A stretch of DNA of 40,962 nt from Actinomycetes bacterium (GTDB lineage: Bacteria > Actinomycetota > Acidimicrobiia > Acidimicrobiales > Ilumatobacteraceae): assembly GCA_014190095.1 (NCBI GenBank), contig BJFW01000009.1:1-40962 (forward strand). The letters run 5' to 3'. The notes under the pieces are model-generated. The model made no database searches, was not told the origin of the DNA, and was given only the letters and a program-made list of their open reading frames with translations. Below are positions 3,118-18,539 of this stretch, one piece after another; within the stretch, counting starts at the first letter, position 1; each line of letters begins with the position of its first letter. Both the position numbers and the translations under genes were made by a program.

Positions 3118-3121
3118 CCGA

Positions 3122-3127
3122 TAACTT
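3122..3127 (+). promoter_or_regulatory. -10 box (TAACTT) for leaderless nadA
   Basis: TAACTT lies six bases before the GTG of nadA, so transcription would begin at or within a base of the start codon. No Shine-Dalgarno sequence is present in the gap. It would allow nadABC to be transcribed separately from the gene at 2587. Confidence 0.6.
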
Positions 3128-3133
3128 GAATGT

Positions 3134-4135
3134 GTGAGTTCAAGCATCGCCAACAGCGTTGACTACGGTCTGAAGTCTGCATGGGCTGAAGAAGTTCGTG
3201 CGCTAGCCAAAGAGCGCGATGCGGTCATTCTTGCTCACAACTATCAAGTGCCTGAGATTCAGGAAATCGCACACCATGTTGGCGACTCGCTAGCGCTTTC
3301 TCGAATCGCAGCACAAGTTGATGCCAGCACCATCGTTTTCTGTGGGGTGCACTTCATGGCAGAAACCGCAAAGATTTTGAGCTACGACAAAACGGTGATC
3401 ATTCCCGATGCGGCCGCCGGATGTTCGCTTGCCGACACGATCAATGCCGATCAGCTTCGTGCGTGGAAGGCCGAGCACCCAGGCGCGGCAGTAGTGAGTT
3501 ATGTAAACACCACTGCAGCAGTAAAAGCAGAAACCGATATTTGCTGCACATCTTCGAACGCTGTTGAAGTGGTGCAATCAATTCCGCTAGATCAAGAAAT
3601 TTTGTTTTGCCCGGATCAGTTTCTTGGTGCTCATGCTCAGCGAGAAACTGGACGCACCAATATGCACATTTGGATGGGTGAGTGCCATGTGCACGCTGGT
3701 ATCAACGGACAAGATTTGAAAAACATGGTTGCTGCTGAACCCGAAGCAGAACTGTTCATTCACCCAGAATGTGGATGTGCAACTTCGGCAATGTATTTGG
3801 CTTCGAGTGGAGCAGTGCCGGCAGAGCGCACGCACATTCTTTCCACATCAGGAATGATCACCGCAGCGCAAAACACACATGCAAAGAAAGTGTTGGTTGC
3901 AACTGAAACTGGAATGTTGCATCAGTTGCGCAAGGCAAACCCGCTGGTCATTTTTGAGCCGGTAAATCGCGCAGCAGTGTGCAAGTACATGAAAATGATT
4001 ACTCCAGAGAAACTGCTTCGTTCATTGCGCGAAGGTACCGATGTGGTTGATGTTCCGCGTGACATTGCAGACAAAGCACGTGCTTCGGTAGAGCGCATGA
4101 TTGCTATTGGCACGCCGTCGCGTACGAAGGAATAA
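3134..4135 (+). CDS. nadA: Quinolinate synthase NadA
   Basis: 333 residues. NadA condenses iminoaspartate (from NadB) with dihydroxyacetone phosphate to give quinolinate in de novo NAD synthesis. The three cluster cysteines are C97 (AAAGCSLAD), C184 (WMGECHVH) and C283 (AVCKYMKM). Their spacing matches the known [4Fe-4S] ligands of the family. [10 protein letters not shown] near residue 34 is the usual first substrate-binding loop. The GTG at 3134 is preferred because a TAACTT box lies exactly six bases upstream and the N-terminal length is normal. nadB follows after five bases, so the two are cotranscribed. Confidence 0.97.
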
Positions 4136-4140
4136 TCACA

Positions 4141-5823
4141 GTGCCGACTAGTTCGCGCGTTCAACAGATATCTGTGAATTTGCCAACACAACTTTCCGCT
4201 CCAGCGGTTTCCTGGACTCGCGAAGTTGATGTTGTCGTGCTTGGCTCTGGGGCCGCAGGGCTTGCCGCGGCATTAGCGGCGCGACCAGTGCGTGATGTAT
4301 TGATCATTACGAAAGACACGCTTGATGCCGGAAGCACTGCGTGGGCACAAGGCGGATTGGCAGCGGTTCTCGACCCAGCCGATACCTTTGGCGAACATGT
4401 GCGCGACACGCTTGAGGCAGGCGCAGGTTTGTGCGATGAAGCGGCAGTTACTTCGCTGGTGCGAGACGCCCCAACTGCCATTCAGTACTTAGAAAAACTT
4501 GGTGCAGCATTCGACCCAGGCAGTGACGGCTTGCGTGCACTCACGCGCGAAGGGGGCCACTCTCGCTCACGCATTGTGCATGCGGGAGGCGATCAATCTG
4601 GCGCAGAAGTGCAGCGCACGCTCGACATGAATGCAATCAATGCGGGTGTCGAAGTAATGGACCATGCGTTTGCGTTGGACTTGGTGTTTGGCAAGTCCTC
4701 TGGCGGTCGCCGCCGTATTGCTGGCGTGCGCATTGCAAAACTCGACGCGCAAGGAAACGTTGAAAGCGTTGGGTTGGTGAAAGCACCGGCAGTTGTTGTT
4801 GCGACTGGTGGATACGGGCAAGTGTTTGCAAGCACTTCAAACCCTCCAGCAGTTACAGGAGATGGTCATGCGCTTGCATTGCGCGCGGGACTTACCTTGC
4901 GCGATCTCGAGTTTGTGCAGTTTCATCCAACGGTGTTGTGGCACTCTGCAAGTTCGACTCAACAGCAGATGCTGATTAGCGAGGCTGTGCGCGGAGAAGG
5001 AGCGATTCTCTTTGATGCTGCCGGCGATCGCATAATGCAAGGTGCACACCCGCAGGAAGACCTTGCACCACGAGATGTGGTTGCATCTGCGATCAGTGCT
5101 CGCATGGCACAAGCGCCAGCAGGTGTTGATGACCACGTGTATTTGGATGCCACCGGCATTGAGAATTTTGAAGAACGTTTCCCATTTATTACCAAGGCTT
5201 GTCGCGCAGCAGGCATAGACCCACTCACACAGCAAATTCCTGTTGCACCTGCAGCGCACTACACATGCGGCGGAATTGATTCGAATCTCGATGGCATTAC
5301 CGAGGTAGATGGGTTGTATGCCGTTGGCGAAGTGGCGTACACAGGTGTGCATGGAGCGAATCGTTTGGCATCGAACTCACTCACCGAAAGCTTGGTGGTG
5401 GGAACACGAGTAGGGCGAAACCTTGCATGGAAAATGCCTGAACGTGTAGATCCAGAGGAGACCGTTGAATCGGAAGTTGCAGGACTACTTGATGATTCGC
5501 TGCGCACTCACGTTCGAACACTGATGAGCAAGCACGTGGGCGTTCTTCGCAGGCCAGAAGGTTTGCAACATGCAATTGATGCCTTAGCAATTACTGCCGA
5601 GAAAGTTGATGCGAGCATGGTTCCTTCGCGCCGCAATTTTGAAGCAACCAACATTTTGACCGTTGCTACTGCAGTTGCGGCAAGCGCGCTTGCACGTACC
5701 GAGAGCCGCGGTTGTCACCGTCGCACAGACACAACAGAACAACGCGAAATTTGGGTTCGACATTTAGAGGTTTCTTTGCGCAATGGCTCGCTGTCAATTA
5801 GTGGAATTCCGAACGAAGCGTAA
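4141..5823 (+). CDS. nadB: L-aspartate oxidase NadB
   Basis: 560 residues. This FAD enzyme oxidises L-aspartate to iminoaspartate, which NadA uses. The dinucleotide-binding motif VVLGSGAAGLAAAL is near residue 32. The succinate-dehydrogenase/aspartate-oxidase signatures follow: STAWAQGGLAAVL, EGGHSRSRIVHAGGD, the active-site stretch HYTCGGI and GANRLASNSLTE. The C-terminal ESRGCHRRTD motif is also typical of the family. It starts with GTG five bases after nadA, and its TAA is two bases before the nadC ATG, so the three genes form one operon. The first ~25 residues before the FAD strand are poorly conserved in the family, leaving a small doubt about the start. Confidence 0.97.
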   Translation: MPTSSRVQQISVNLPTQLSAPAVSWTREVDVVVLGSGAAGLAAALAARPVRDVLIITKDTLDAGSTAWAQGGLAAVLDPADTFGEHVRDTLEAGAGLCDEAAVTSLVRDAPTAIQYLEKLGAAFDPGSDGLRALTREGGHSRSRIVHAGGDQSGAEVQRTLDMNAINAGVEVMDHAFALDLVFGKSSGGRRRIAGVRIAKLDAQGNVESVGLVKAPAVVVATGGYGQVFASTSNPPAVTGDGHALALRAGLTLRDLEFVQFHPTVLWHSASSTQQQMLISEAVRGEGAILFDAAGDRIMQGAHPQEDLAPRDVVASAISARMAQAPAGVDDHVYLDATGIENFEERFPFITKACRAAGIDPLTQQIPVAPAAHYTCGGIDSNLDGITEVDGLYAVGEVAYTGVHGANRLASNSLTESLVVGTRVGRNLAWKMPERVDPEETVESEVAGLLDDSLRTHVRTLMSKHVGVLRRPEGLQHAIDALAITAEKVDASMVPSRRNFEATNILTVATAVAASALARTESRGCHRRTDTTEQREIWVRHLEVSLRNGSLSISGIPNEA

Positions 5824-5825
5824 CC

Positions 5826-6749
5826 ATGTTGCACCACAAGCTTTCCGATGAGTCTGCTCAGCGCATCACTGCAGCGGGTTTAGAAGTTGATGCCGTGCGT
5901 CGGCTCATTTCGGTTGCGCTGGACGAAGACTTGCACAATGGTCCTGATGTCACCACAAATTCGACTGTGCCCGCGCATCAGCGAAGCGCTGGAGTGTTTG
6001 CATCTCGGCAAATAGGTTGCATCGCTGGTTTGGCAATTGCAGGCGCAGTGTTTGACATGGTGTGTGGTGCCGAGCAAGTGGTGTTCACACAGTTAGTTGC
6101 TGATGGAGCGCGCGTTGAACCCGGAACTCGTGTAGCGAACGTTGCGGGACCAACTCGAGGGTTACTTACAGCAGAGCGCACTGCGCTCAATTTGCTTGGA
6201 CATCTATCGGGAGTTGCAACTGCTACAAGCCAATGGGCCGACGCCATAGCTTCAACAAAGGCAAAGGTTCGCGACACTCGCAAAACTACCCCAGGAATGC
6301 GTGCGCTTGAAAAATACGCAGTGCGTTGTGGTGGTGGAGTGAATCACCGCATGTCGCTTTCGGACGCTGCTTTGGTGAAAGACAACCACATCGTGGCTGC
6401 GGGTGGAGTTGCTGAAGCATTTGCTGCGGTTCGCGCTGCTGCACCATCCATCGTGTTGGAAATTGAAGTAGACACCATTGATCAGCTGCGCACAGCACTT
6501 GCTGCAGGCGCCGACTTGGTGTTGCTCGACAACATGAAGCCAGAAGTTTTGCGCGAGGCAGTTGCTATTGCAGCACAGCATCTTGCATTAACTGGCCGCG
6601 CAGTTATTCTTGAGGCAAGTGGTGGGCTTACGTTGGAAAATGCCCAAAGCGTTGCCGCAACTGGCGTGAATTACATTTCAGTTGGTGCGCTTACGCACTC
6701 TGCAAAAGTGCTTGATATTGGGCTCGATCTAGAAACGATTGTCGCTTAA
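5826..6749 (+). CDS. nadC: Nicotinate-nucleotide pyrophosphorylase (carboxylating) NadC
   Basis: 307 residues, normal to slightly long for NadC. It transfers phosphoribosyl from PRPP to quinolinate and releases CO2, giving nicotinate mononucleotide. Recognisable blocks are ALNLLGHLSGVAT, VRDTRKTTPGMR, YAVRCGGGVNHRMSL with DAALVKDNH, and LLDNM in the barrel strand that binds the phosphate. It completes the nadA-nadB-nadC operon. The stop overlaps by four bases (6746-6749) with that of the convergent alpha/beta hydrolase gene, with no terminator hairpin between them. Confidence 0.97.
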   Translation: MLHHKLSDESAQRITAAGLEVDAVRRLISVALDEDLHNGPDVTTNSTVPAHQRSAGVFASRQIGCIAGLAIAGAVFDMVCGAEQVVFTQLVADGARVEPGTRVANVAGPTRGLLTAERTALNLLGHLSGVATATSQWADAIASTKAKVRDTRKTTPGMRALEKYAVRCGGGVNHRMSLSDAALVKDNHIVAAGGVAEAFAAVRAAAPSIVLEIEVDTIDQLRTALAAGADLVLLDNMKPEVLREAVAIAAQHLALTGRAVILEASGGLTLENAQSVAATGVNYISVGALTHSAKVLDIGLDLETIVA

Positions 6750-7582
6750 TTTTTTAGTGTACGTTGGTACACGCTGTTGCATGCGGCAACAAGTTTGGGA
6801 ACATATGTGCGTTGCTCGGCGTAAATTGCGTTGTGCCCGCCATCAACCAAGTGCACATCAACATCTTTCAATAAGTCCAATAAGCGCTGTTGTCGCTCGG
6901 GAGGAATGACCTGGTCTTGGGTGGTGATCACCACCGATGTAGGAACGTCTACTTCCGATAACCACTTCAATGAATTGAAACTTCCTATTTCTTTTCCGGC
7001 TTCCAGAATTTGTCGCCAGTCATGACCCGACATTTCTTCGAGTGCCCATTGGTCTAATCCTTCAGCCTTGCGCTGTAAGTACACCTGCTCGGTTATCCAG
7101 TCCACGGTTTGTGCTGGAGTGAACCGAGCAATCCTTGCAAGCCCAGTAAGCCCGAGAAATCCAAGTCGCTCTTCACGGGACTTTGCAAAGATTGGCGCAG
7201 TGCTGCACAGAACCAGTCCGTTCACGCGGTGCTCGTGTTGCTTCCAAATGAGTTGAGCAATGGTTCCGCCCATTGAGTATCCAACTGGGATGAATGTATT
7301 GATGCCGAGCGTGTCTGCAAGTGCAACTACATCGTCTGCGCAGTCTTCAAGTCGAAACGAACTGCGCGACCTGATTCCTTGACCGTGTCCACGGTGATCA
7401 AGTGCAACAACGTTGAAGTGTTTGCCAAGCTCCTCAAAACAAGTAAACCAATTCAGGTCAGCAGTTGCTGTCCAGCCGTGCAACAAGATAAGTGTTGGCG
7501 CATTGTCTGGCCCTTGAACTTCGCGAATGAAGGTTTGACCGCGATCTGGAATATCAATTAGTCGGCCGGGAGGAAGCGCCAT
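6746..7582 (-). CDS. Alpha/beta hydrolase, serine nucleophile type
   Basis: 278 residues with a full alpha/beta hydrolase fold and no signal peptide. The oxyanion-hole strand LILLHGWTAT is near residue 32, the nucleophile elbow is GYSMGG with S103, and the histidine sits in VDGGHNAIY near the C-terminus. LDHRGHGQG is typical of esterases, peroxidases and C-C hydrolases of this superfamily, so the substrate cannot be named. It lies 10 bases downstream of greA on the same strand and has a plausible ribosome site (GGAG) just before the ATG, so it is probably translated from the greA message. Confidence 0.85.
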   Translation of the reverse strand: MALPPGRLIDIPDRGQTFIREVQGPDNAPTLILLHGWTATADLNWFTCFEELGKHFNVVALDHRGHGQGIRSRSSFRLEDCADDVVALADTLGINTFIPVGYSMGGTIAQLIWKQHEHRVNGLVLCSTAPIFAKSREERLGFLGLTGLARIARFTPAQTVDWITEQVYLQRKAEGLDQWALEEMSGHDWRQILEAGKEIGSFNSLKWLSEVDVPTSVVITTQDQVIPPERQQRLLDLLKDVDVHLVDGGHNAIYAEQRTYVPKLVAACNSVYQRTLKN

Positions 7583-7592
7583 GATCTCCGAA

Positions 7593-8075
7593 TTATTTCT
7601 GAGACTTTGTGGACAACACTTTTACTTTGAGCATTCCATTTGGCGCTTCGTATGAAACTATGTCGCCTTCTTTTGCACCAAGCAACGCTGAACCGAGTGG
7701 GGAAGAAGGGCTCATCACGCTGACATCTTTAGTGTCTGGCTTTTCTTCAACATGTCCAATGAGATACGACTCTGCATCGCTGTCCGAATCGCCTTCGTAG
7801 ACAATGGCTACGACCGAGCCGAGTCCAACAACACCATTGGGTGCTGGAGAGACCACCTCGGCGTCTTCGAGGATGGACTCGATCTGGCGAATGCGGCCTT
7901 CCATATGGCCCTGTTCGTCCTTGGCGGCGTGATAATCGCCGTTTTCCTTGAGGTCGCCAAGTTCGCGTGCTCGCTCAATTTTGTTGGCTACATCGATACG
8001 TCCACGAGTGGTGAGGTCGTCAAACTCGGCCTTTAAACGGTCATAGGTGGACTTCGAAAGTTGGTGCTTAGCCAT
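7593..8075 (-). CDS. greA: Transcription elongation factor GreA
   Basis: 160 residues. GreA inserts a coiled coil into the RNA polymerase secondary channel and stimulates cleavage of backtracked RNA. The acidic tip residues D41 and E44 are present in [12 protein letters not shown]. The C-terminal domain ends with the usual [10 protein letters not shown] strand. The start [14 protein letters not shown] is chosen over an in-frame upstream ATG because it gives family length and because a TAGCCT box lies eight bases before it. It is divergent from leuB across 49 bases and is followed by the hydrolase gene. Confidence 0.96.
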
Positions 8076-8083
8076 ACGGACTA

Positions 8084-8089
8084 AGGCTA
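8084..8089 (-). promoter_or_regulatory. -10 box (TAGCCT) for leaderless greA
   Basis: On the minus strand TAGCCT stands eight bases before the greA ATG. The identical hexamer at nearly the same distance precedes gltX and also serves tRNA-Glu in this window, which supports a shared sigma factor. Confidence 0.6.
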
Positions 8090-8124
8090 TCTGCGCAAAA
8101 TCCACCCTACGATGGAGCATCACT

Positions 8125-9138
8125 ATGTCAGCGAAATCAACACATGCTCATCGCGTTGCAGTAATCGGTGGCGACGGAATTGGACCAGAGGTCACGGCTG
8201 AGGCGTTGAAGGTGGTGAGGGCCGCAGGAATTGAATTAGAGACCACAAGTTTTGACCTTGGCGGTGCTCGTTACTTGCGTGATGGCGAAGTGTTGTCAGA
8301 CGCAACGCTTGCAGAGCTTCGTAAGTTTGATGCGATCTTGCTTGGCGCAGTTGGTACACCTGCAGTACCACCGGGAGTAATTGAGCGCGGCTTACTTTTG
8401 AAGATGCGTTTCGAATTGGATTTATATATCAATCAGCGTCCATTCGCTGGTGTTGCACCGGGCCATACACAGTCACACGACTTCGTGGTGATTCGCGAGA
8501 ATACCGAAGGCCCGTATGTCGGCGAAGGCGGAGTGCTGCGCAAGGGCACGCCTTTTGAAGTGGCAACGCAGGGAAGCGTAAATACCGCGCACGGTGTAGA
8601 GCGCTGCGTCCGTTATGCATTCGAACTTGCCGCACAGCGCGAGCGCAAACACCTGACATTGGTGCACAAAACAAACGTGCTCACGTTTGCTGGTGACTTG
8701 TGGCAGCGCACGTTCAACAAAGTTGCTGAAGAGTTCCCACACGTTGGAACTGCGTACAACCACGTAGACGCAGCTTGCATCTACTTCGTTCAAGACCCGC
8801 AACGCTACGACGTCATTGTGACCGACAACTTGTTCGGCGATATTTTGACCGACCTTGGTGGAGCAGTGAGCGGTGGAATTGGTGTTGCATCATCAGCCAA
8901 CTTGAACCCAAAGCGCACCGGACCTTCCATGTTCGAACCTGTGCACGGATCTGCGCCAGACATTGTTGGCACAGGTAAGGCGAACCCAGTTGCGGCCATT
9001 TTGTCTGCAGCACACATGTTGGAGTTCTTAGGTGAAAATGTCGGGGCAGCGAAGTTGCGCGCAGCCTGTGAAAAGCCAAGTGCGGGCTCAACCTCGCAAG
9101 TTGGCGACGAAATTGCAGCCCGAGTTGCGGGCAAGTAA
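8125..9138 (+). CDS. leuB: 3-isopropylmalate dehydrogenase LeuB
   Basis: 337 residues starting at [16 protein letters not shown]. It oxidatively decarboxylates 3-isopropylmalate with NAD for leucine synthesis, and may act on 3-methylmalate for the citramalate route. Visible family features are GDGIGPEV at the N-terminus, the substrate-binding arginines in [31 protein letters not shown], the metal-binding aspartates in [16 protein letters not shown], and [18 protein letters not shown]. An in-frame upstream extension to 8047 is rejected because it would overlap greA and add 26 unrelated residues. GGAG seven bases before the ATG could serve as a ribosome site. ilvE follows after 38 bases. Confidence 0.96.
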
Positions 9139-9176
9139 CGCTAAGTTTTATCAACGTTTGTAACTAAGGGGACGTC

Positions 9177-10094
9177 ATGCCAATTACCACGACACCAAAA
9201 ATTTGGATGAACGGAAAGCTTGTCGATTGGGACAAGGCGCAAGTTCATGTACTTACTCATACCCTCCATTACGGCACTGGTGTGTTCGAGGGCATTCGCG
9301 CATACGAAACTGACAAGGGTCCAGCAGTGTTCCGCCTTACCGACCACATGCAGCGCTTCATCAACTCAGCAAAAATCTTGTCAATGCCAATGCCATACTC
9401 GCTTGAAGAACTTGTTCAGGCTGTGAAGGACACCGTTGCATCAACAGGATTGCCAGCTTGTTACATTCGTCCCCTCGCGTACTACGGGTACGGCGAAATG
9501 GGTCTGAACACCACGCCGTGTAAAACCGATGTTGCAATCGCATGCTGGCCGTGGGGTGCATATTTGGGTGATGACGCGGTTGAAAAGGGCGTGCGCATGA
9601 AGATTTCTTCATGGACGCGTCACGATCACAACACCATGCCTCCAGCAGCAAAAACAGTTGGTAATTACGTGAACTCGTCTCTTGCCAAAGTTGAAGCGCT
9701 GAAGGCTGGTTACGACGAAGCCATCATGCTTGCACCGAACGGTTTGATTGCAGAGTGCACAGGCGAGAACCTGTTCGTTGTGCGCAATGGAATCATTTTG
9801 ACCCCACCAACTTCGGCTGGAGCGCTTGAGGGCATTACGCAAAACAGCGTCACTCGCATTGCTCGTGACCTGGGTTACGAAGTGCGCGTAGACAACATTG
9901 CACGCAGCGATTTGTATATTGCTGAAGAAATCTTCGCCTGCGGAACTGCAGCCGAAGTCGGATCGGTAAGTTCAGTCGACGATCGTCCGGTGCCATGCCC
10001 GGGGCCGATCACGCGAGCAATTGCCTCCACCTATGCCAAGGCTGTCCGCGGCCAAGACCCGCGCTATGTCGACTGGCTCGAATACGCGAAATAA
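9177..10094 (+). CDS. ilvE: Branched-chain amino acid aminotransferase IlvE
   Basis: 305 residues, normal length for a fold-type IV transaminase. It transfers an amino group between glutamate and the keto acids of valine, leucine and isoleucine. The PLP lysine is K159 in the AAKTVGNYVNS block. HYGTGVFEGIRAY, RPLAYYGYGEMGL and the phosphate-binding ECTGENLFVV are family hallmarks. AAGGGG seven bases before the ATG is one of the better Shine-Dalgarno sequences in the window. It is cotranscribed with leuB. Downstream lies the repeat-rich regulatory region before cimA. Confidence 0.96.
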   Translation: MPITTTPKIWMNGKLVDWDKAQVHVLTHTLHYGTGVFEGIRAYETDKGPAVFRLTDHMQRFINSAKILSMPMPYSLEELVQAVKDTVASTGLPACYIRPLAYYGYGEMGLNTTPCKTDVAIACWPWGAYLGDDAVEKGVRMKISSWTRHDHNTMPPAAKTVGNYVNSSLAKVEALKAGYDEAIMLAPNGLIAECTGENLFVVRNGIILTPPTSAGALEGITQNSVTRIARDLGYEVRVDNIARSDLYIAEEIFACGTAAEVGSVSSVDDRPVPCPGPITRAIASTYAKAVRGQDPRYVDWLEYAK

Positions 10095-10224
10095 CAGGCC
10101 TCGTATTACACAGGGGTGACTTGGAGGGGGTTTCCCCCAGGTTTCTCCACAGGCGTTTCCACATGCGGAATACCGTCCGCAGGGCTTTATCCACAGGTAT
10201 CCCCACAGGTTTGCTCAGCACAGG
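10095..10224 (+). repeat. Cluster of CACAGG / DnaA-box-like repeats
   Basis: Five copies of CACAGG occur at 10109, 10148, 10192, 10204 and 10219, all on the plus strand. Several extend into DnaA-box-like nonamers: TTATCCACA (10187-10195, a perfect TTRTCCACA match), TTCTCCACA (10143-10151) and GTTTCCACA (10155-10163). Two small inverted repeats lie among them: GGGGG-TTT-CCCCC (10126-10138) and TGCGGA/TCCGCA (10164-10169/10176-10181). The stretch has no credible gene. It could be a DnaA-binding locus controlling ilvE or cimA, or a binding array for another regulator. No replication gene lies nearby. Confidence 0.5.
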
Positions 10225-10253
10225 TTGGCGAACGCCTTTTCGTGCGTCAGACT
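10225..10253 (+). promoter_or_regulatory. Promoter of the cimA leader: TTGGCG, 17 bases, CAGACT
   Basis: A -35 hexamer TTGGCG (10225-10230) is separated by 17 bases from CAGACT (10248-10253). The first base of the leader peptide GTG is seven bases after the -10, so the message should start at the leader start codon. CAGACT-TAGAG also appears before the M20 peptidase gene at 38627. Confidence 0.6.
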
Positions 10254-10259
10254 AGAGAC

Positions 10260-10313
10260 GTGAATCTTTTTGGAGCCTCCCAGTCCAGCATTGCGATCAT
10301 CATTATTCGATAG
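10260..10313 (+). CDS. Isoleucine-rich leader peptide of the cimA attenuator (17 aa)
   Basis: GTG at 10260 opens a 17-codon frame reading MNLFGASQSSIAIIIIR, ending with TAG at 10311-10313. It has five isoleucine codons, the last four consecutive (ATC ATC ATT ATT, 10296-10307). This is the pattern of a leader peptide that senses charged tRNA-Ile. The stop codon overlaps the base of a strong hairpin, and a rho-independent terminator follows 25 bases later, ahead of citramalate synthase, the first committed enzyme of isoleucine synthesis by the citramalate route. Translation would be leaderless. Role is inferred from codons and layout; I have not found a convincing antiterminator pairing. Confidence 0.75.
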   Translation: MNLFGASQSSIAIIIIR

Positions 10314-10338
10314 GCGTGCGTCACCCGACGTACGCCTA
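10311..10338 (+). promoter_or_regulatory. Leader hairpin of the cimA attenuator
   Basis: Bases 10311-10322 pair with 10327-10338 over 12 bp with a single G-U pair and an ACCC loop. It begins at the leader peptide stop codon, so a ribosome that reaches the stop would cover its 5' arm, whereas one stalled at the Ile codons would leave it free to form. Its last pair uses A10338, the first base of the terminator stem. Confidence 0.7.
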
Positions 10339-10363
10339 AGCCGCCCAAACGGGCGGCTTTTTT
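10338..10363 (+). terminator. Rho-independent terminator between leader peptide and cimA
   Basis: A nine-base stem (AAGCCGCCC / GGGCGGCTT) with an AAAC loop is followed by a run of six T residues (10358-10363). It lies 35 bases before the cimA ATG and downstream of the Ile leader peptide, so it is best read as the attenuator terminator; it would also stop any readthrough from ilvE. Confidence 0.85.
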
Positions 10364-10398
10364 AATCCCCAAATTTCGACAGAAGAGAAGAGCAACAG

Positions 10399-11973
10399 AT
10401 GACAAAGCAACAACTCGTAGAAGTATTCGACACCACATTGCGAGACGGCATGCAAGTGGAAGGCGTGTCGGCAAGCGTTGAAGACAAGCTACGCATTGCA
10501 GAACAACTGGACTACTTGGGCGTGCACTTCATTGAAGGTGGATGGCCTGGTGCGAACCCTAAAGACATTGAGTTCTTTGCCCGCGCAAAGCAAGAGCTGA
10601 CGTTTACCACTTCAGCATTAGTTGCTTTTGGTTCAACGCGTCGCCCGCTTGGCAAAGTTGACGACGATGCAACGCTACGAAACTTGATTGAGGCGCAAAC
10701 CTCTGCGGTGTGCATTGTTGCAAAAGCGTGGGACTATCACGTTGAACACGCATTGCAAACAACACTTGAAGAAGGCATCGCCATGGTGTCGGATTCGGTG
10801 AAGTATCTCACCGCAAATGATCGTCGCGTGCTCGTGGACATGGAGCATTTCTTCGATGGGTTCAAGTCAAACCCTGAGTTTTCGCTGCGCGTATTAGAGG
10901 CAGCAATCATCGGTGGCGCAACGCACTTGGTGTTATGTGACACCAATGGTGGATCACTTCCAAGCGATGTGCTGCACATTGTTGGGGAAGTGAAGAAGCA
11001 CATCGGCGACGATGCAACAATCGGAATTCACTGTCACGACGACACGGGTTGCGCAGTCGCTAACTCGCTTGCAGCAGTGCAAAGCGGTGCACGCCATGTT
11101 CAAGGAACGCTGAACGGTCTTGGTGAGCGAACGGGAAACACAAACCTGACAACAGTCATTCCAAACTTGCAATTGAAGATGGGCTATGAGTGTTTGCCAG
11201 AAGGCAGACTCGAGCGCCTTACTGCAGTAAGTAATTATGTTGCCGAAGTGCTGAACCGTCCATTGAATCCGCAAGCTCCATACGTTGGTAGTTCGGCATT
11301 CGCACATAAGGCCGGTCTTCACGTTTCAGCAATCTCACGTGCAAAAGATGCATATGAGCACATCGCTCCAGAACTTGTTGGTAACGGCACGCGATTCTTG
11401 GTGAGCGAAATGGCTGGTCGTGCAACCATCACCATGAAGGCTGATGAACTTGGCCTCACCATGGATGGTCCGGCGGTCAATCAGGTAATTGACGACCTGA
11501 AGCGACTTGAGCACGAGGGCTACCACTTTGAAGCAGCCGATGCGTCGCTCGAACTATTGATGCGTCGTGCATCTGGCTGGCAACAGAACTTCTTCAACGT
11601 TGAGTCAATGCGTGTGATCACTGATGAGTCATCGGCTGGAACATTTACAACTGAAGCAACAGTGAAGGTGTGGATCGGTGACCACCGCGAAGTACGCGTT
11701 GCTGAGGGCAATGGTCCTGTCAATGCAATTGACACTGCATTGCGTGCTGCTTTGTTGGAAAAGTTCCCGCAGCTTTCCCGCGTGCATTTGACTGACTACA
11801 AAGTGCGAATTCTGGATTCGGGTTCTGCAACTGGTGCGGTAACTCGCGTCTTGCTGGATGCTTCAGATGGCGAGCGCAACTGGACCACTATTGGCGTTTC
11901 GTCAAACATTATTGAAGCCTCGTGGCGTGCTCTCGAAGAGTCGCTCATCTTCGGGCTCTTGCATTCCAAGTAG
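10399..11973 (+). CDS. cimA: (R)-citramalate synthase CimA
   Basis: 524 residues. It condenses acetyl-CoA with pyruvate to citramalate, which LeuCD and LeuB can turn into 2-ketobutyrate for isoleucine. The N-terminal barrel has the DRE-TIM signature FDTTLRDGMQ near residue 9, then HFIEGGWPGANPKD, a block typical of the long citramalate synthase group rather than LeuA. GIHCHDDTGCAVAN and GTLNGLGERTGN provide metal ligands. The C-terminal ~150 residues form the regulatory domain seen in this group and in isopropylmalate synthase. GAAGAG precedes the ATG as a ribosome site. The Ile-codon leader upstream independently supports a role in isoleucine rather than leucine synthesis. Confidence 0.93.
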   Translation: MTKQQLVEVFDTTLRDGMQVEGVSASVEDKLRIAEQLDYLGVHFIEGGWPGANPKDIEFFARAKQELTFTTSALVAFGSTRRPLGKVDDDATLRNLIEAQTSAVCIVAKAWDYHVEHALQTTLEEGIAMVSDSVKYLTANDRRVLVDMEHFFDGFKSNPEFSLRVLEAAIIGGATHLVLCDTNGGSLPSDVLHIVGEVKKHIGDDATIGIHCHDDTGCAVANSLAAVQSGARHVQGTLNGLGERTGNTNLTTVIPNLQLKMGYECLPEGRLERLTAVSNYVAEVLNRPLNPQAPYVGSSAFAHKAGLHVSAISRAKDAYEHIAPELVGNGTRFLVSEMAGRATITMKADELGLTMDGPAVNQVIDDLKRLEHEGYHFEAADASLELLMRRASGWQQNFFNVESMRVITDESSAGTFTTEATVKVWIGDHREVRVAEGNGPVNAIDTALRAALLEKFPQLSRVHLTDYKVRILDSGSATGAVTRVLLDASDGERNWTTIGVSSNIIEASWRALEESLIFGLLHSK

Positions 11974-11985
11974 GCTCGCTGGGGT

Positions 11986-12510
11986 ATGGCTGCTCCAAAG
12001 TTTGCTCCGGTAAGTGCAACTCAGAAGCCGCGTTCGTATGAATCGCCGTTGCATGTTCCTGCGCCATGGTCGTCAGGTCGCCCCGGAGAAATTGACGGCA
12101 AGCAACCTCGTGGTGCGAGCTTGGGCAATCAAGGCCCCGATCAGGGTTACATCCTGACGCTTGCCCGTATTGCACGAAACAAGATCAAAGTCAAAGCAGG
12201 TGAGTCGGTGGACGACGCAATTCGCGGTTCGATCGGCATCGCGTTGCGCAGGGCTTCCATGTACGGACGTGCGCCAGTAATGCACGACCTCACGTTCGCA
12301 CTCACCATTTGGGGATGGCTTGTTGACACCGTGCCTGCAGACTTGTTGGCTCGTCGTAAAGAACTCTTTTCTGGAGTAGGCGATGCAGCACATTCGTATT
12401 ACGAGGTTCGCGAAATTACGGGACTCGTTCCGGAAACGACGTACCAGCTGTCAATTGACCAACTCACTGCAATCACGCCGATGTCGTGGCGCGCACTTAC
12501 TGGTGCGTAA
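11986..12510 (+). CDS. Unknown protein, 174 aa, downstream of cimA
   Basis: I do not recognise this family. The first ~55 residues are rich in proline and glycine (SPLHVPAPWSSGRPGE, QPRGASLGNQGPDQGY) and probably form an extended arm. The rest looks helical, with a hydrophobic stretch LTFALTIWGWLVDTVPADLL near residue 101 that is amphipathic rather than a clear membrane segment. No signal peptide is present. It begins 12 bases after cimA and is followed after three bases by a MOSC gene, so all three are probably one transcript. TAGGCT nine bases before the ATG, overlapping the cimA stop, could add an internal promoter. Confidence 0.75.
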   Translation: MAAPKFAPVSATQKPRSYESPLHVPAPWSSGRPGEIDGKQPRGASLGNQGPDQGYILTLARIARNKIKVKAGESVDDAIRGSIGIALRRASMYGRAPVMHDLTFALTIWGWLVDTVPADLLARRKELFSGVGDAAHSYYEVREITGLVPETTYQLSIDQLTAITPMSWRALTGA

Positions 12511-12513
12511 ATA

Positions 12514-13056
12514 ATGCCTTCACAAGTAGTGGGCGTTCACTCTTCGCCTGAACATACATTCACGAAACAAGCGCGAAGCTCAATCGAACTTGTTGCAGGT
12601 ATCGGCGTGCAGGGCGATGCGCACGCTGGCGCAACCGTGAAACATTCGTACCTGCTCCGCAAGAAGCCAGAAAAACCGAACCTACGCCAGGTTCACCTCA
12701 TTGCAAGCGAACTGATTGAAGAGTTACGCCTTGAGGGTTTCAATGTTGAGCGAGGCTCTATGGGCGAAAACATCACCACGAGCGGAGTGCAGCTCGCGTC
12801 GTTGCCGCACGCAACTCGGTTGGTATTTCCGAGTGGCGCTGTAATTGAACTCACGGGAATTCGTACGCCATGTAAGCAGCTGAATGCATTTCAAGATGGC
12901 TTGCTTGCTGCAGTGCGAGAGAAGAACGAAAGCGGTGCGTTTCGCCGGCCAGTTGGCGTGCTTGCAATCGTGGTAACAAGTGGTGTCGTTTCACCAAATG
13001 ACGCAATCGACGTACAACTTCCAACAGGCGCACATCGCGCTATGGAATTTATTTAA
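12514..13056 (+). CDS. MOSC-domain protein
   Basis: 180 residues, nearly all MOSC domain, the fold shared with the C-terminal domain of molybdenum cofactor sulfurase and with YiiM/mARC-type reductases. GIGVQGDAHAG near residue 29, the RGSMGENITTSG block near residue 80, and the conserved cysteine C120 in GIRTPCKQL are the family landmarks. Such proteins carry or transfer sulfur or molybdenum cofactor; the partner is not in this window. It starts three bases after the unknown gene upstream and ends convergent with the DUF2237 gene with no gap. Confidence 0.88.
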   Translation: MPSQVVGVHSSPEHTFTKQARSSIELVAGIGVQGDAHAGATVKHSYLLRKKPEKPNLRQVHLIASELIEELRLEGFNVERGSMGENITTSGVQLASLPHATRLVFPSGAVIELTGIRTPCKQLNAFQDGLLAAVREKNESGAFRRPVGVLAIVVTSGVVSPNDAIDVQLPTGAHRAMEFI

Positions 13057-13425
13057 CTACAGCGCAAACTTTTCCAGGTCTGCAAGGTTCACAAACTCAA
13101 GCGTGTGAACATGTGTTGCACGTAAGTTCACCTTTGGTGCCATTCCCGCTTCGAATGCTTCTTGCCAGCGCGATGCACAGAGGCACCAGTGATCTCCGGC
13201 CTTCAGTCCATCAAAACCGTATTGCGGCATTGGGGTAGACAAGTCGTTGCCGCGCGACTTAGAGAACGCAAGAAACTCATCGGTCATCACTGCACATACC
13301 GTGTGCACGCCGGTGTCATCTCCACCGGTTTCACAACATCCAGTGCGGTACCAACCCGTCATTGGAGAAGTGCAACATGTTTCGATTGGTTCGCCATACA
13401 CATTCACTTGAGTTCCAATTGTCAT
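13057..13425 (-). CDS. DUF2237 family protein
   Basis: 122 residues that match the DUF2237 pattern along the whole length: NVYGEPIETC, PMTGWYRTGCCETG, GVHTVCAVMTDEFLAFS, SRGNDLSTPMP, and the closing DHWCLCASRWQEAFEAG. Cys pairs (residues about 20-35 and in WCLCA) suggest metal or redox chemistry, but no function is established for the family. The ATG at 13425 is preferred over an in-frame TTG three codons upstream because a TAAGTT box stands seven bases before it. It is divergent from gltX and convergent with the MOSC gene. Confidence 0.9.
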   Translation of the reverse strand: MTIGTQVNVYGEPIETCCTSPMTGWYRTGCCETGGDDTGVHTVCAVMTDEFLAFSKSRGNDLSTPMPQYGFDGLKAGDHWCLCASRWQEAFEAGMAPKVNLRATHVHTLEFVNLADLEKFAL

Positions 13426-13432
13426 GTGCCAC

Positions 13433-13475
13433 AACTTAGTGTTCGCTCGAGGTGAGTGCTTTGCTCAGATAGCCT
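13433..13475. promoter_or_regulatory. Divergent -10 boxes for the DUF2237 gene and gltX
   Basis: On the minus strand TAAGTT (13433-13438) lies seven bases before the DUF2237 ATG. On the plus strand TAGCCT (13470-13475) lies eight bases before the gltX ATG. Both fit leaderless transcription. The two starts are 58 bases apart, so the promoters share one short region. Confidence 0.6.
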
Positions 13476-13483
13476 GAAAGCAC

Positions 13484-14896
13484 ATGTCCGCAACTCCTCG
13501 CTATCGTTTCGCGCCATCTCCAACTGGCTATTTCCACGTCGGTGGCGCACGCACCGCGCTGTATAACTGGCTTCTTGCGCTGAAGAACAACGGCACGTTT
13601 GTGCTGCGCATTGAAGACACCGACGAATCTCGAAACGAGCCACAGTGGACTCAGGGGATCATTGATGCACTTGCATGGATAGGTATTGACAGCAAAGACC
13701 CGCATTTTGAAGGGCCATACTTCCAGTCCACCTATGCGTCAGAACATGTTGCCGCTGCTCACAAGTTGTTTGAAGCTGGCAAGGCGTATTACTGCGACCA
13801 GACCACTGAACAAATTCAGGAGCGAGCAAAAGCTGCAGGCCTGAATGGCTATGACGGCTTTTCACGGGACCGAAAACTTGGCCCTGGTCCGGGCCATGTT
13901 TTGCGTTTCCGAGTTCCTGAGGGAAAGACCATCGTGAACGACACCGTTCGCGGAGCAGTGGAATTCGAAAACTCCACAATTGAAGACTTTGTGTTGTTAC
14001 GTGGCAACGGCACTCCAGTGTTTCTTATTGCCAATGTGGTTGATGACATCACCATGAACATCACCCATGTAGTGCGAGCGGAGGAGCATCTGCCAAACAC
14101 TCCCAAGCAGCAAATGCTGTGGGAGGCATTAGGCCACACGCCACCGGTATGGGCGCACGTTCCTGTGTTGGTAAATGAACAGCGCAAGAAGTTGTCAAAG
14201 CGTCGTGACAAAGTTGCTGTCGAGCAATATCGCGAAGAAGGAATTCTGCCTGAAGCAATGGTGAATTACCTCATGACACTGGGTTGGGCGCCAAGTGGTG
14301 ATACCGAAATCGTTCCGTTGCAGAAGATTCAAGACGAATTCCGTTTGGAAGACGTCAATCATTCACCGGCGTTTTTTGACATTAAGAAATTGCAGTCATT
14401 CAATGGTGAATACATTCGCCTCATGACGCACGATGCTTTTGTCGCTGCAGCAAATGAAGTGCTTACGAGTTCGGCAGCAACGTGGCCAGCAGATCGTTAT
14501 AAGCCAGAAGTGTTTGCTGCAATGGCACCACTTGTGCAAACGCGAGTAGCGGTGATGGCCGAAGTGGTGGCAATGGTGGACTTTCTGTTTTTGGCCGAGC
14601 CGCCAATTGATGAAGCTGCATTCACGAAAGCCTTTGGCGCAGATTTCGCCGTGCCTACGCTGACTGAAATTTCGAAAGCATTTGAAACGATTGAGTGGAA
14701 TGCAGAAAGCATCAAGGTTGCTGTTGAAACAGTTGGCACTCAGCACGACGTAAAGCTTGGAAAATTGCAAGGGCCTCTGCGCATTGCAATCACGGGTCGA
14801 ACAGTTGGTCCGCCACTGTTTGAGCCGATTGAATTACTTGGTCGTGAAGAGTCGCAGCGCCGTATTCGTGCAGCACTCGTTCGGGCTGCTGGTTAA
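13484..14896 (+). CDS. gltX: Glutamyl-tRNA synthetase GltX
   Basis: 470 residues, class I synthetase that charges tRNA-Glu. The HIGH-type motif is HVGG at 18-21 ([17 protein letters not shown]), the KMSKS-type motif is KLSKR at 236-240, and RIEDTDESR at 42-50 contacts glutamate. The anticodon-binding half follows, complete to the final [12 protein letters not shown]. If the organism lacks GlnRS this enzyme would also misacylate tRNA-Gln for GatCAB; nothing here decides that. A tRNA-Gln and a tRNA-Glu gene lie within 2 kb downstream. The next gene starts nine bases after its stop. Confidence 0.97.
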
Positions 14897-14905
14897 CTCA
14901 CCGTC

Positions 14906-15508
14906 ATGAAACGCGCAGGCACTGCGATAGTGCTTGTGCTGGCTGGATTCATGTATGTCGGTCTGAACATAGTTCAAGTGTGGTCTGTCGGTCGTAGCGA
15001 CGGTAGGAGAGAAGTCGATGCAATTGTGGTGATGGGCGTTGCTCAATACGACGGAAGACCATCACCGCAGCTGCAGGCTCGCCTTGATCATGTGCTCACA
15101 CTGTGGAAGCAAGGTGTGGCCGAGTTGGTGGTGACAACGGGTGGTAATCAACCTGGCGATCGCTTCACGGAAGCAAGGGCATCTGCCGACTATCTGATTG
15201 CAGGTGGCATTCCTGAATCGTCAATTTCCATGGAAGATATTGGCTCAACAACACTTCAGTCGCTGCAGGGAGTTGCCGAGATATTGAATAGCCGAGGGCT
15301 TGCTTCGGTCAACATCGTGACTGACCCCTATCACGCGCTCCGGTCGCGATTGATTGCTCAAGACCTTGGATTAACTGCCTATATTTCTCCAGCCGAAAAT
15401 TCTGCGGTGACGGGTTGGGCAGAAAAGAGGCGAATGATCAATGAAGGCCTAGGAATTTCACTTGCCCATGTCATTGGATTTAGGTCCCTCGACAGATTGA
15501 CGAATTGA
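14906..15508 (+). CDS. YdcF/SanA-like DUF218 protein, membrane anchored
   Basis: 200 residues. Residues 4-25 (AGTAIVLVLAGFMYVGLNIV) form one N-terminal membrane anchor. The rest is a DUF218 domain: VDAIVVMGVAQYDGRPSP, a strand-loop ELVVTTGGNQPGDRFTEA, the SISMEDIGSTTLQSL block, and VNIVTDPYHALRS. Proteins of this family (SanA, ElyC, YdcF) affect envelope integrity; their chemistry is not settled. It begins nine bases after gltX and is probably cotranscribed with it. Confidence 0.85.
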   Translation: MKRAGTAIVLVLAGFMYVGLNIVQVWSVGRSDGRREVDAIVVMGVAQYDGRPSPQLQARLDHVLTLWKQGVAELVVTTGGNQPGDRFTEARASADYLIAGGIPESSISMEDIGSTTLQSLQGVAEILNSRGLASVNIVTDPYHALRSRLIAQDLGLTAYISPAENSAVTGWAEKRRMINEGLGISLAHVIGFRSLDRLTN

Positions 15509-15519
15509 TCAGGGCGGTA

Positions 15520-15549
15520 TTGCGGTCGATTTAGGGTTGCCGATATCCT
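15520..15549 (+). promoter_or_regulatory. Promoter of tRNA-Gln: TTGCGG, 18 bases, TATCCT
   Basis: TTGCGG (15520-15525) and TATCCT (15544-15549) are 18 bases apart and end 13 bases before the mature tRNA-Gln. This is a good housekeeping promoter and a useful standard for the other -10 boxes in the window. Confidence 0.6.
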
Positions 15550-15562
15550 TCAGTCGTCACTC

Positions 15563-15637
15563 TGGGGAGTGGTGTAACTGGCAACACAGCAGATTCTGGT
15601 TCTGTTATTCAGGGTTCGATTCCTTGCTCCCCAACCA
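15563..15637 (+). tRNA. tRNA-Gln (CTG), CCA encoded
   Basis: A full cloverleaf can be drawn. The acceptor TGGGGAG pairs with CTCCCCA, the D arm is closed by GTGT/ACAC, the anticodon stem GCAGA/TCTGT holds loop TTCTGGT with anticodon CTG, and the T arm CAGGG/CCTTG holds TTCGATT. The discriminator A is followed by genomic CCA at 15635-15637. The other two tRNA genes in the window lack an encoded CCA. Confidence 0.95.
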
Positions 15638-15642
15638 ATTGT

Positions 15643-16650
15643 CTACTCTTCGTGCTGGGGAATGAGCACGAATTTTCCAACGTGCTTCTTTTCTAAGAAT
15701 TCCTGTTGTGCGCGAGCAATGTCTGCGAGCGGAAAAGTCTTGGCAACCAGCGGCTTGATGCGATTCGACTCAATATATGAAACAAGTCGAGGGAACACTG
15801 GTTCGTCCCACGCTGTGCAACCAATCAGTGTGAGGTCCTTGAGGTACATAGTACGCAAGTCCAGATCGACGAGTGGGCCACCAATTGCCCCAGATGTTGC
15901 ATACCGACCACCGCGCTTCAACGTGTTGAGTTCTCCAGCAAAATGAGGACCACCGACATTGTCAATGACGACATCAAAAGATTCCTCGCCGAGTTCATTC
16001 ACGAGGTCAGAATCTCGATCAACGACAAAGTCGGCACCGATACGAATCACTTCTTCCATTTTTGATTTTCCAACTATTGCGGTAACGGTTGCTCCACGAA
16101 TTTTTGCAAGTTGCACTACAGCAGATCCAACGCCGCCAGATGCGCCGGCAACAAGTACATGCTCGCCAGAAGTAACGCGCGAACGTTGCACCATGTTTTC
16201 GGCAGATCCGTAACTGCAAGGAATGGATCCAAGTTCGGCATCTGTCCACGATGACTCGATAGGGAAGACCTCGTTTGCGGGCACTTTTACGTATTGCGCG
16301 AATGCACCATCGAAGTCCGAACCCATCCAGATATTGAGCATCGAATCAAAACCATTTGGTCGCATACATGGGCGAACCAACACGCGTTTACCAACAAATC
16401 CTGCATCGTCAGAATCGAATGTTTGTGTGACGATGCCACAGCAATCAGTTCCTTGAATGAAAGGAAACGGGGTGGGGATGTGCCAACCACCGCCTGAATA
16501 CCAGCCGAGGCGTGTGTTGATCTCGGTGTTGTTTACACCAGCGGCGAGCACCTTGATGAGAATTTCACCAGCGCCAAGTTCGGGCAGTGGTACTTCGCAA
16601 TACTGCAGTTTGTCGAACCCGCCATTTCCCGTAGTAACAACAGCCTTCAC
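15643..16650 (-). CDS. NADPH:quinone reductase-like zinc-family alcohol dehydrogenase
   Basis: 335 residues of the medium-chain dehydrogenase/reductase fold. The GroES-like half has AAGVNNTEINTRLG in place of the catalytic zinc region. The coenzyme half has the glycine motif VAGASGGVGSAVVQLAK near residue 162. The absence of the usual zinc ligands points to the quinone oxidoreductase or crotonyl-CoA reductase-like branch; the substrate is unknown. The GTG at 16650 (MKAVVTTGNGG) is chosen over a TTG 11 codons upstream because TAGTGT lies seven bases before it. It is convergent with tRNA-Gln (five bases apart) and divergent from tRNA-Glu. Confidence 0.85.
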   Translation of the reverse strand: MKAVVTTGNGGFDKLQYCEVPLPELGAGEILIKVLAAGVNNTEINTRLGWYSGGGWHIPTPFPFIQGTDCCGIVTQTFDSDDAGFVGKRVLVRPCMRPNGFDSMLNIWMGSDFDGAFAQYVKVPANEVFPIESSWTDAELGSIPCSYGSAENMVQRSRVTSGEHVLVAGASGGVGSAVVQLAKIRGATVTAIVGKSKMEEVIRIGADFVVDRDSDLVNELGEESFDVVIDNVGGPHFAGELNTLKRGGRYATSGAIGGPLVDLDLRTMYLKDLTLIGCTAWDEPVFPRLVSYIESNRIKPLVAKTFPLADIARAQQEFLEKKHVGKFVLIPQHEE

Positions 16651-16657
16651 GGGATTA

Positions 16658-16663
16658 ACACTA
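16658..16663 (-). promoter_or_regulatory. -10 box (TAGTGT) for the quinone-reductase-like gene
   Basis: TAGTGT on the minus strand is seven bases before the GTG chosen as start, which decides this start over the upstream TTG. The TTG at 16683 would lie upstream of the predicted transcript. Confidence 0.55.
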
Positions 16664-16687
16664 GAGACAATTGAGAAAGACAATCGG

Positions 16688-16693
16688 TAGCCT
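16688..16693 (+). promoter_or_regulatory. -10 box (TAGCCT) of tRNA-Glu
   Basis: TAGCCT lies 13 bases before the mature tRNA-Glu, the same distance as the -10 box of tRNA-Gln. A weak GAGACA is 18 bases further upstream. The same hexamer precedes greA and gltX. Confidence 0.5.
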
Positions 16694-16706
16694 TGAATCG
16701 CTACTT

Positions 16707-16779
16707 GGCCCCATCGTCTAGTGGCCTAGGACACTACCCTCTCAAGGTAGCGGCACGGGTTCGAATCCCGTTGGGGCTG
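16707..16779 (+). tRNA. tRNA-Glu (CTC)
   Basis: The cloverleaf has acceptor GGCCCCA/TGGGGCT (first pair G-U), D arm GTC...GAC, anticodon stem CTACC/GGTAG with loop CTCTCAA and anticodon CTC, and T arm ACGGG/CCCGT with TTCGAAT. The discriminator is G and no CCA is encoded. The ATG of a lipoprotein gene follows only 10 bases after the discriminator. Confidence 0.95.
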
Positions 16780-16789
16780 CAATTCACTT

Positions 16790-17101
16790 ATGAAACGTTT
16801 CGTAGTTGTTGCGCTTGCATCTTTTTTGCTCATCTCGTGCTCGTCCTCTGAACAAAATTCAGCGGCAGTTGTTTGTCCTCCAGTAGATGCTGCCGATGCA
16901 ACAGCAATTACGCCGGAGCGCGCAGAAATGCTCGTTGGTTTACTGGAATCCGATGCAGAGAAGTGCGCAGCTGATCTTGGTTGGGCGTATCGAGTTGGTT
17001 CGCGCGATGGCGAAGACTTCGCGCTCACTGCTGATTATTCTCAGCAACGTGTAACGGTGACCATCACGCTTGGTGTTGTTACTGCTATTTCAGTTGGCTA
17101 G
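16790..17101 (+). CDS. Small lipoprotein, C-terminal part resembling I78-type inhibitors
   Basis: 103 residues. A lipoprotein signal peptide ends in LLIS-C with the modified cysteine at 17, so the protein should be anchored on the outer face of the membrane. The last ~45 residues (CAADLGWAYRVGSRDG, then ALTADYSQQRVTV and a final GVVTAISVG) follow the order seen in the I78 (potato-type) peptidase inhibitor family: variable loop, DYR-like strand, closing Val/Ile-Gly. That match is by eye and tentative. It begins 10 bases after tRNA-Glu and has no promoter of its own. The 3' end overlaps the amidase gene on the other strand by 17 bases. Confidence 0.75.
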   Translation: MKRFVVVALASFLLISCSSSEQNSAAVVCPPVDAADATAITPERAEMLVGLLESDAEKCAADLGWAYRVGSRDGEDFALTADYSQQRVTVTITLGVVTAISVG

Positions 17102-18539
17102 CAGCGGGTCGCCTGTGCGCCCACGGCATTGCAACTTCTAATTGTGATGCAAGTCGAAGAAGCAAGTCTTCGCGTCCATACGCGGCAACTAATTGCATAC
17201 CCACAGGAACGCCATCAGCGGTCCAATGCAGCGGGAGGCTGATTGCGGGTTGACCACTGGTGTTGAATGCAGGTGTAAACGGCACAAAGTCTGCAGCAAC
17301 TTTCATTGGCTTCATTGGGTCACTCGGATCGTTATCGAATGAACCTATCGTCAGTGGAACTCGCGCGGCAGTCGGCGTTAACAGAATGTCCCAACCATCT
17401 GCCCACCATTGCTGTACTGCGCGCCGATAGTGCGATGTAGAGAGAATTGCATTTGCATAGTCTGTTGCTGAAGCACGTTTTGAATACTCGGCCATGGTCC
17501 AGTTGACGAGTTCGAAATCATTTTTCGTTACTTCTCGTCCAAGTAATGCAGCGACACCTTCGCGCGCAACCGACATGTTGGTGCTCCATAACGAAGTGAA
17601 CTTTGGTGCAAACGTGTGGTCTTCAAGTGCTTGTGGCCACGCCGCATCTACGTGATGTCCGAGTTGCTCCAGCACCTTTGCCACCAAGCGCACCCCTTCG
17701 GCGCACTCTGGGTCAATGTCTCCAGGTACTGGTCGATGATCGAGAAAACCAATTTTTAGTTGTCCTGTTGGCGCACCAATTTCTTGGAGGTACGGGCGCG
17801 TAGGTGGTGGTGCGATGACGCGATCACCAACTCCTGGACCCTCCACGATGTCAAGAAGTAGTGCGGTGTCGCGCACAGTGCGACTGACGACGTGCTCAAC
17901 GCCCAAATTTGTTTCATCTCGAAGTGGCGCTCCGGTAATGCGACCTTGACTTACTTTGAGACCGACAAGACCACAGCAAGCCGCAGGAATACGAACAGAA
18001 CCACCACCATCGGTTGCGTGTGCTGCTGGAACAATTCCGGAAGCAACTGCTGCGGCACTGCCACCACTTGACCCTCCGGCCATGCGGTTGGTGTCCCATG
18101 GATTGCGTGTTGGACCCCATGCTTCCGGTTCGGTGGTAGGAACGCTTCCGAATTCGGGAGAATTTCCGCGTCCAAAGATAACGAGCCCGGCATTGATAAA
18201 GCGCTGCACAATTTCTGCCGTGTAGTTGGAGTTCAGTGCTGCTGCCTTCATGGCTTTGTTGCCATTTGAAAGCGGAAAACCTTTCATTGCAGCGTGAAGA
18301 TCCTTCAAGATGAACGGAACACCTCGCAGTGGCATCGCAGAATTCGTTGGCAGATTGCGGGCGATTTCTCGTGCTCTATCGAACCAGGTGAAGGTGAGTG
18401 AATTGATTGCTGGATTGAGCTGCTCTGCTCGCTCAATAGCGGCATCAAGAAGTTCGACTGGTGTTACTTTTCCAGAGCGGACAAGTTCGGCTTGGTCAAT
18501 GGCATCAACCCATTGTGTGTCGTGTGCAAGTGATGACAT
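17085..18539 (-). CDS. Amidase signature family enzyme
   Basis: 484 residues with the complete Ser-cisSer-Lys triad: K79 ([12 protein letters not shown]), S157 ([12 protein letters not shown]) and S181 ([14 protein letters not shown]). The family hydrolyses carboxamides. Members include GatA, but GatA is normally next to gatB/gatC, which are absent, so this is more likely a catabolic or 6-aminohexanoate-type amidase. No signal peptide. A run of six G residues seven bases before the ATG is its likely ribosome site, making this one of the leadered genes. It is divergent from the MFS gene across 35 bases. Confidence 0.9.

Follow-up and report, generated by a model that had tools for sequence, protein, structure and literature searches.

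A predicted isoleucine-specific transcription attenuator ahead of the citramalate synthase gene cimA in Ilumatobacteraceae, with related elements at other branched-chain amino acid genes of Acidimicrobiia

The DNA analyzed here, a stretch of 40,962 nucleotides (the window), derives from a 1.77-Mb assembly whose near relatives are metagenome assemblies of Ilumatobacteraceae and Acidimicrobiaceae. The genes leuB, ilvE and cimA occur in this order, and the gap between ilvE and cimA contains a promoter, a short frame with a run of Ile codons, a hairpin (P1) that starts at the stop codon of this frame and a GC-rich intrinsic terminator (T) located 244 bp downstream of ilvE (Table 1). The naming of the downstream gene as cimA in the original prediction was upheld by a score of 697.6 bits with TIGR00977, for which the cut-off is 450. 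A role for cimA as the sole route to 2-ketobutyrate was unsupported, an ilvA-type protein scoring just above its cut-off. The GTG start codon lies 6 nt downstream of the end of the −10 box, and an additional single Ile codon is present at codon 11 of the leader frame, outside the four-codon run.

Table 1. Positions of the leader features and of the downstream gene in the window
Feature	Position	Strand	Details
Promoter	10225..10253	+	−35 TTGGCG 10225-10230, 17-nt spacer, −10 CAGACT 10248-10253
Predicted leaderless leader-peptide frame	10260..10313	+	GTG start, 17 codons, MNLFGASQSSIAIIIIR and stop
Regulatory codon run	10296..10307	+	ATC ATC ATT ATT, codons −5 to −2 from stop
Stop codon	10311..10313	+	UAG (TAG), doubling as base of P1
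P1 hairpin	10311..10338	+	arms 10311-10322/10327-10338, 12 bp, one G-U
Intrinsic terminator T	10338..10363	+	stem 10338-10359, six T at 10358-10363
cimA, (R)-citramalate synthase	10399..11973	+	downstream gene, ATG 10399, TIGR00977

The Ile-codon leader, P1 and terminator that had been proposed ahead of cimA proved to be real features, being confirmed on the sequence, conserved in relatives (see below) and located in a region (10225-10380) whose RNA had a predicted folding energy of −55.2 kcal/mol as compared to −38.6 kcal/mol in shuffles (z −4.6), with none of 200 shuffles being equally low. T ranked as the strongest of the terminator-like sites within positions 1-20000 of the window. Two further observations were made on the DNA around the promoter. 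Just 5′ of it, at 10143-10205, there is a cluster of DnaA-box-like repeats, all on the + strand (TTCTCCACA, GTTTCCACA, TTATCCACA and GTATCCCCA), and nowhere else in the window are such repeats as dense. DnaA-like boxes with up to 2 mismatches had a frequency of 1.39 per 100 bp in 119 relatives as compared to 0.17 in shuffles and were found 371 times on the + strand and 41 times on the − strand. A replication origin was ruled out, as dnaA is more than 1 Mb away in two complete genomes (G124 and G131). In addition, the −35 box carries a short palindrome both at cimA (TTGGCGAACGCC, 10225-10236) and at ilvB of this genome (TTGCCGAACGGC, L002/L239), and these palindromes may possibly represent the site of a shared regulator.

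In order to assess conservation, cimA neighbourhoods were collected from 221 genomes of the genus and family, mostly metagenome assemblies, from 80 loci of named genomes and from further stretches. The element was present in 119 of 163 distinct upstream regions, these being ilvE-cimA gaps of Ilumatobacteraceae, a conservation that excludes a chance origin. Isoleucine occupied 83% to 100% of the codons from −5 to −2 relative to the stop (99/119 at −5, 116/119 at −4, 111/119 at −3 and 119/119 at −2, the last count being partly due to selection because the locus filter required at least 2 Ile codons and Ile or Leu at −2) and was never found at −6 (0/119). Loss of this run in relatives had been named in the original prediction as a refuting outcome; the run was instead retained in all 119 distinct regions, together with a covarying P1 and the terminator. 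A cultured relative, Desertimonas flava (L105), is among those with the element. The stop codon was UAG in all 119 cimA leaders, even with other stops permitted in the search, and the N-terminal part of the leader varied freely in sequence and in length (11 to 25 codons). The order ATC ATC ATT ATT was nearly fixed despite both codons encoding isoleucine, 118 of the 119 leaders having ATT at −2 and none using ATA. Absence of the element followed lineage: the genera g2 and g9 had no leader, as was also the case for some Ilumatobacter and outgroups, and in the g2 loci that were read, cimA directly followed ilvE.

Covariation was examined in an alignment of 20 diverse sequences restricted to a single register of P1. 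Seven of the ten P1 pairs had changed on both sides, 97% to 98.2% of the P1 cells were paired, and the covariation score for the whole structure was 0.261, as compared to 0.081 for shuffled alignments and no more than 0.077 for slid versions. The T stem (GCCGCCC/GGGCGGC) is nearly invariant in the family and hence provides no covariation evidence. In 127 of the 178 loci, P1 starts on the third stop-codon base; P1 and T are spaced by −1 to +7 nt across all 178 loci, such that P1 abuts T without sharing it.

The original prediction had placed the transcription start on the GTG codon, and the geometry of the promoters in the relatives lends support to such a leaderless start. The spacing between the −35 and −10 elements was 17 in 90 of 119 relatives, and the −10 element ended 6 to 10 nt upstream of an in-frame start codon in 116 of them. 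When the best in-frame candidate was chosen for each leader, with the best out-of-frame candidate as a control, promoter scores were 6.84 and 4.61, respectively (p 5.6e-39, a value that is indicative only because related sequences are not independent). Shine-Dalgarno-like motifs were rarer than in shuffles (4 of 119 relatives versus an expectation of 9.4). The geometry of these promoters and the lack of a Shine-Dalgarno motif thus support the view that the predicted leader transcript is leaderless.

A covariance model was then applied to other genes and genomes. This model starts at the stop codon, spans the stretch downstream of the frame and contains no leader codons; its E-values are rough, and the order, class and phylum samples were drawn samples rather than complete sets. 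Two strong sites were detected in the host genome, one at cimA and one at ilvB, where the leader ends in CEVVVVVM and is followed by TAG, P1 and T. Other genomes of the family had Val-rich ilvB leaders (VVVVV, VVVVLV) and, in one case, a leuA leader ending in APTLLLLM. Matches were obtained for 135 of 248 genomes of the order; those that were read stand before ilvB and leuB, and in 11 of the 13 loci examined leuB is followed by ilvE. Two matches from the rest of the class, outside the order, were likewise leuB leaders (AIIVIP and RIIVIV). Most of the matches read outside the class were plain terminators; one of them (L376), however, has a leader ending in RVLLIT, a TAG and a matching P1, and looks real, a possible sign of wider spread.

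The codons of these leaders depended on the target gene, being Ile at cimA, Val/Leu/Ile but Val-rich at ilvB, mixes of Ile and Val at leuB-ilvE and, in the single case, LLLL at leuA. In 59 order-level matches, Ile, Val and Leu together accounted for 95%, 83%, 73% and 89% of the codons at −2, −3, −4 and −5, respectively, and for far less further upstream. As the model never saw codons −2 to −5, these results put the leader-peptide reading to the test independently, and the tracking of the pathway product by codons that the model does not contain strongly supports ribosome-mediated attenuation. GTA was the commonest codon of the run in the order-level ilvB and leuB leaders. The 59 order-level matches outside the cimA set had 52 UAG, 5 UGA and 2 UAA stops. 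A conserved UAG acting as a decoding signal was rejected, as UGA and UAA occurred with an intact P1 base; the stop is retained for structure and position, because UGA or UAA is possible when this base is kept. The element seems to have moved, since it heads leuB-ilvE elsewhere in the class, whereas in Ilumatobacteraceae it separates ilvE from cimA and its run consists of Ile codons only. In L283, L285, L289, L294, L298, L341 and others, terminator stems were constant for each operon (GCCGCCC at cimA, CCTCCC at ilvB and CCGTCCAC at leuB, the latter with a mostly retained U-G pair), while P1 drifted with compensation. A further group of matches (L307, L351 and L362) had a UGA stop, leaders ending in ISVVH, ISVLH and VSVPH, and the terminator GACCGCCC.

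Comparison of the sequences indicates that the element is a predicted leaderless frame ending in an Ile run at −5 to −2, with P1 at the stop and T directly behind. We consider it likely, with a probability of about 0.8, that this element would attenuate transcription of cimA through the ribosome in specific response to isoleucine. When the RNA was folded with a ribosome footprint that ended 13 nt beyond the A-site codon's first base, predicted P1 pairing was 0.99, 0.98, 0.72 and 0.26 with the ribosome at −5, −4, −3 and −2, respectively, and 0.00 at the stop; by these values, the Ile run is placed precisely so that a ribosome stalled on it only just leaves P1 free. With ample Ile-tRNA, the ribosome would reach UAG and its front edge (∼+13 nt) would cover the 5′ arm of P1; with P1 masked, T would fold and transcription would stop ahead of cimA. 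With scarce Ile-tRNA, the ribosome would wait at the first Ile codons with its front edge just short of UAG, P1 would form and RNA polymerase would read through into cimA, which is the sign of control that a biosynthetic gene demands. The link between P1 and T is the most speculative step: P1, lying against the terminator base, would probably crowd this base at the RNA exit channel and so hinder closing of the lowest terminator pairs at or in the channel. Extended to the class, a tentative proposal is that Acidimicrobiia possess a type of attenuator in which a ribosome-gated hairpin may serve as a steric antiterminator that adjoins the base of T and shares none of its bases.

The original prediction had itself questioned the switching logic for want of a strong antiterminator, and this doubt was well founded. 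When leader and P1 segments were compared with both arms of T in 119 loci, no conserved base-paired antiterminator was detected, complementarity being without excess over shuffles for either the 3′ arm (z −0.24) or the 5′ arm (z +0.41). A weak pairing of GCCTCCC with GGGCGGC, put forward as an alternative in that prediction, was not sustained, as the first segment varies within the genus (GCCACCC in L004 and different again in L006-L010) and the 119 loci had no excess complementarity. At equilibrium, T folding was ∼0.91 to 0.97 for every ribosome position, but such folding is uninformative on switching because the terminator of the E. coli trp control likewise stayed folded in all states. Switching was therefore analyzed with a truncated transcript, folded before the 3′ arm of T is made, for which the E. 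coli trp control behaved as expected (0.62 pairing of the corresponding arm in the stalled state and 0.01 at the stop). The order was reversed for the cimA leader, with 0.08 to 0.13 of the T 5′ arm paired in the stalled state, 0.51 at the stop and 0.46 in shuffled sequences; hence, no sequestration of this arm in the stalled state was detected by this test.

These values bear on an opposite switch, in which P1 would be an anti-antiterminator: without P1, its 3′ arm would pair with the 5′ arm of T, resulting in readthrough, and plentiful isoleucine would switch the gene on. The higher pairing of the T 5′ arm at the stop than in the stalled state is what such a switch predicts, but the level is close to that of shuffled sequences, the energy (−3.5) is weaker than that of shuffles (−4.9) and the sign would be senseless for a biosynthetic gene. 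The pairing between these two arms with the ribosome at the stop was consequently rejected, and we regard this switch as very unlikely. As a rule, trp and his attenuators include a pause hairpin. A possible, though doubtful, alternative retains the sign of regulation proposed above but makes P1 chiefly a pause hairpin for RNA polymerase that keeps ribosome and polymerase in step, with the true antiterminating contact being a weak, species-variable or protein-assisted structure that escapes folding. With the polymerase inside T, the base of P1 would trail its active site by ∼11 nt, the operons resemble one another in the sequence at the foot of P1 (UAGCGCACG) and a pausing hairpin forms part of the C. 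glutamicum model (PMC11857589). However, a pause by itself yields no readthrough, no conserved alternative pairing was found and the short, fixed distance between P1 and T in 178 loci is not needed for a pause.

Two further explanations would dispense with attenuation. The view of T as an ordinary terminator of leuB-ilvE accompanied by a fortuitous small frame is favoured by its position downstream of ilvE, where it would stop upstream transcripts too; a conserved promoter 5′ of T, a position-locked Ile run, a covarying P1 at the stop and the same layout before ilvB and leuB make this explanation extremely unlikely. The remaining explanation, that the small hydrophobic peptide is itself the product (a membrane peptide or toxin), could draw on the proximity of IIII to the C terminus, but has a probability close to nil given that the N-terminal part varies freely in length and sequence and that the residues swap to Val or Leu according to the downstream gene.

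With isoleucine-specific attenuation as the preferred reading for cimA, an entire class of actinobacteria from fresh water, the sea and soil, for the most part uncultured, gains a predicted Ile/Val/Leu control system whose codons and targets can be named, and cimA joins the genes under predicted leader-peptide control. The 178 loci also constitute a large natural series without a textbook antiterminator, so that control of intrinsic termination by hairpin proximity alone becomes directly testable in vitro.

Searches of Rfam detected no family at gathering score for the leader, with tRNAs only in one search and Phe_leader as the best match in another (33.1 bits versus a gathering score of 55); there was no T-box among the matches listed. 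A close comparison is with the ilvB1NC attenuator of M. tuberculosis (PMC13236596), which likewise has a run of branched-chain codons before the stop, a ribosome at the stop that masks the upstream hairpin and a terminator behind. The position logic of ilvB1 is that of the cimA leader, and this attenuator has been tested by experiment, a change of LVVI to AAAA abolishing the response. The two differ in that ilvB1 is the gene controlled there and its anti-terminator and terminator are presented as folds that exclude each other, whereas P1 and T at cimA share no bases and the codons are Ile only. The C. glutamicum ilvBNC leader (the ilvB-II motif; PMC11857589, PMC10272879) also has a short branched-chain frame, abutting hairpin bases and a terminator, and provides a precedent for abutting hairpins with an overlap of one GCC (PMC11857589). 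In that leader, however, the antiterminator and terminator overlap at this trinucleotide, a third hairpin is present and the frame spans P1. The motif is limited to ilvB of Corynebacterium (PMC11857589, PMC10272879); at cimA, the frame stops where P1 starts and there is no pairing of the P1 loop with a terminator arm.

For ilvB of actinobacteria, predictions of leader peptides with terminators date back to 2005, and some parts were recorded as absent (PMC1262725). In S. coelicolor ilvB, as cited in that paper, altered leader codons were without effect, a result that counts against the attenuator reading of cimA. The list for S. lividans includes leaderless ilvL and leuL (PMC8079986), and the Streptomyces ilvL, leuL1, leuL2 and trpL leaders share with the cimA leader a leaderless start, a codon run and, for several, hairpins behind; they differ in having other genes and peptides, in a run that is not locked to −5 to −2 before a stop-anchored hairpin and in the absence of cimA. 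Mycobacterial polycysteine short ORFs (Canestrari 2020, as cited in PMC13236596; PMC1262725) are also leaderless with a run near the stop, but the citation presents them as translation attenuation of cysteine genes, and no conserved terminator was found for them in PMC1262725. The LEU element of actinobacterial leuA is a pseudoknot in which the Leu codons are paired to the leuA Shine-Dalgarno box; by layout, the cimA leader differs in having a terminator between the frame and the gene.

Searches of open-access full texts found none that dealt with attenuation of citramalate synthase, and the top literature matches among open-access papers included none on leader peptides or attenuators in Acidimicrobiia. 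As in trp and ilv attenuators, a short frame, predicted to be translated, carries repeated codons for the amino acid that the pathway makes, an intrinsic terminator separates this frame from a biosynthetic gene and hairpin formation is predicted to depend on the position of the stalled ribosome; an antiterminator sharing bases with the terminator is lacking. The element may thus work like a trp or ilv attenuator minus the shared-base antiterminator that defines the type. The novelty suggested by the original prediction holds in part: leaderless branched-chain leaders before ilvB, leuA and leuS had already been described in Streptomyces (PMC8079986), and such leader peptides are known in Actinobacteria, whereas the targeting of cimA, a set that spans the class and the absence of an antiterminator are new.
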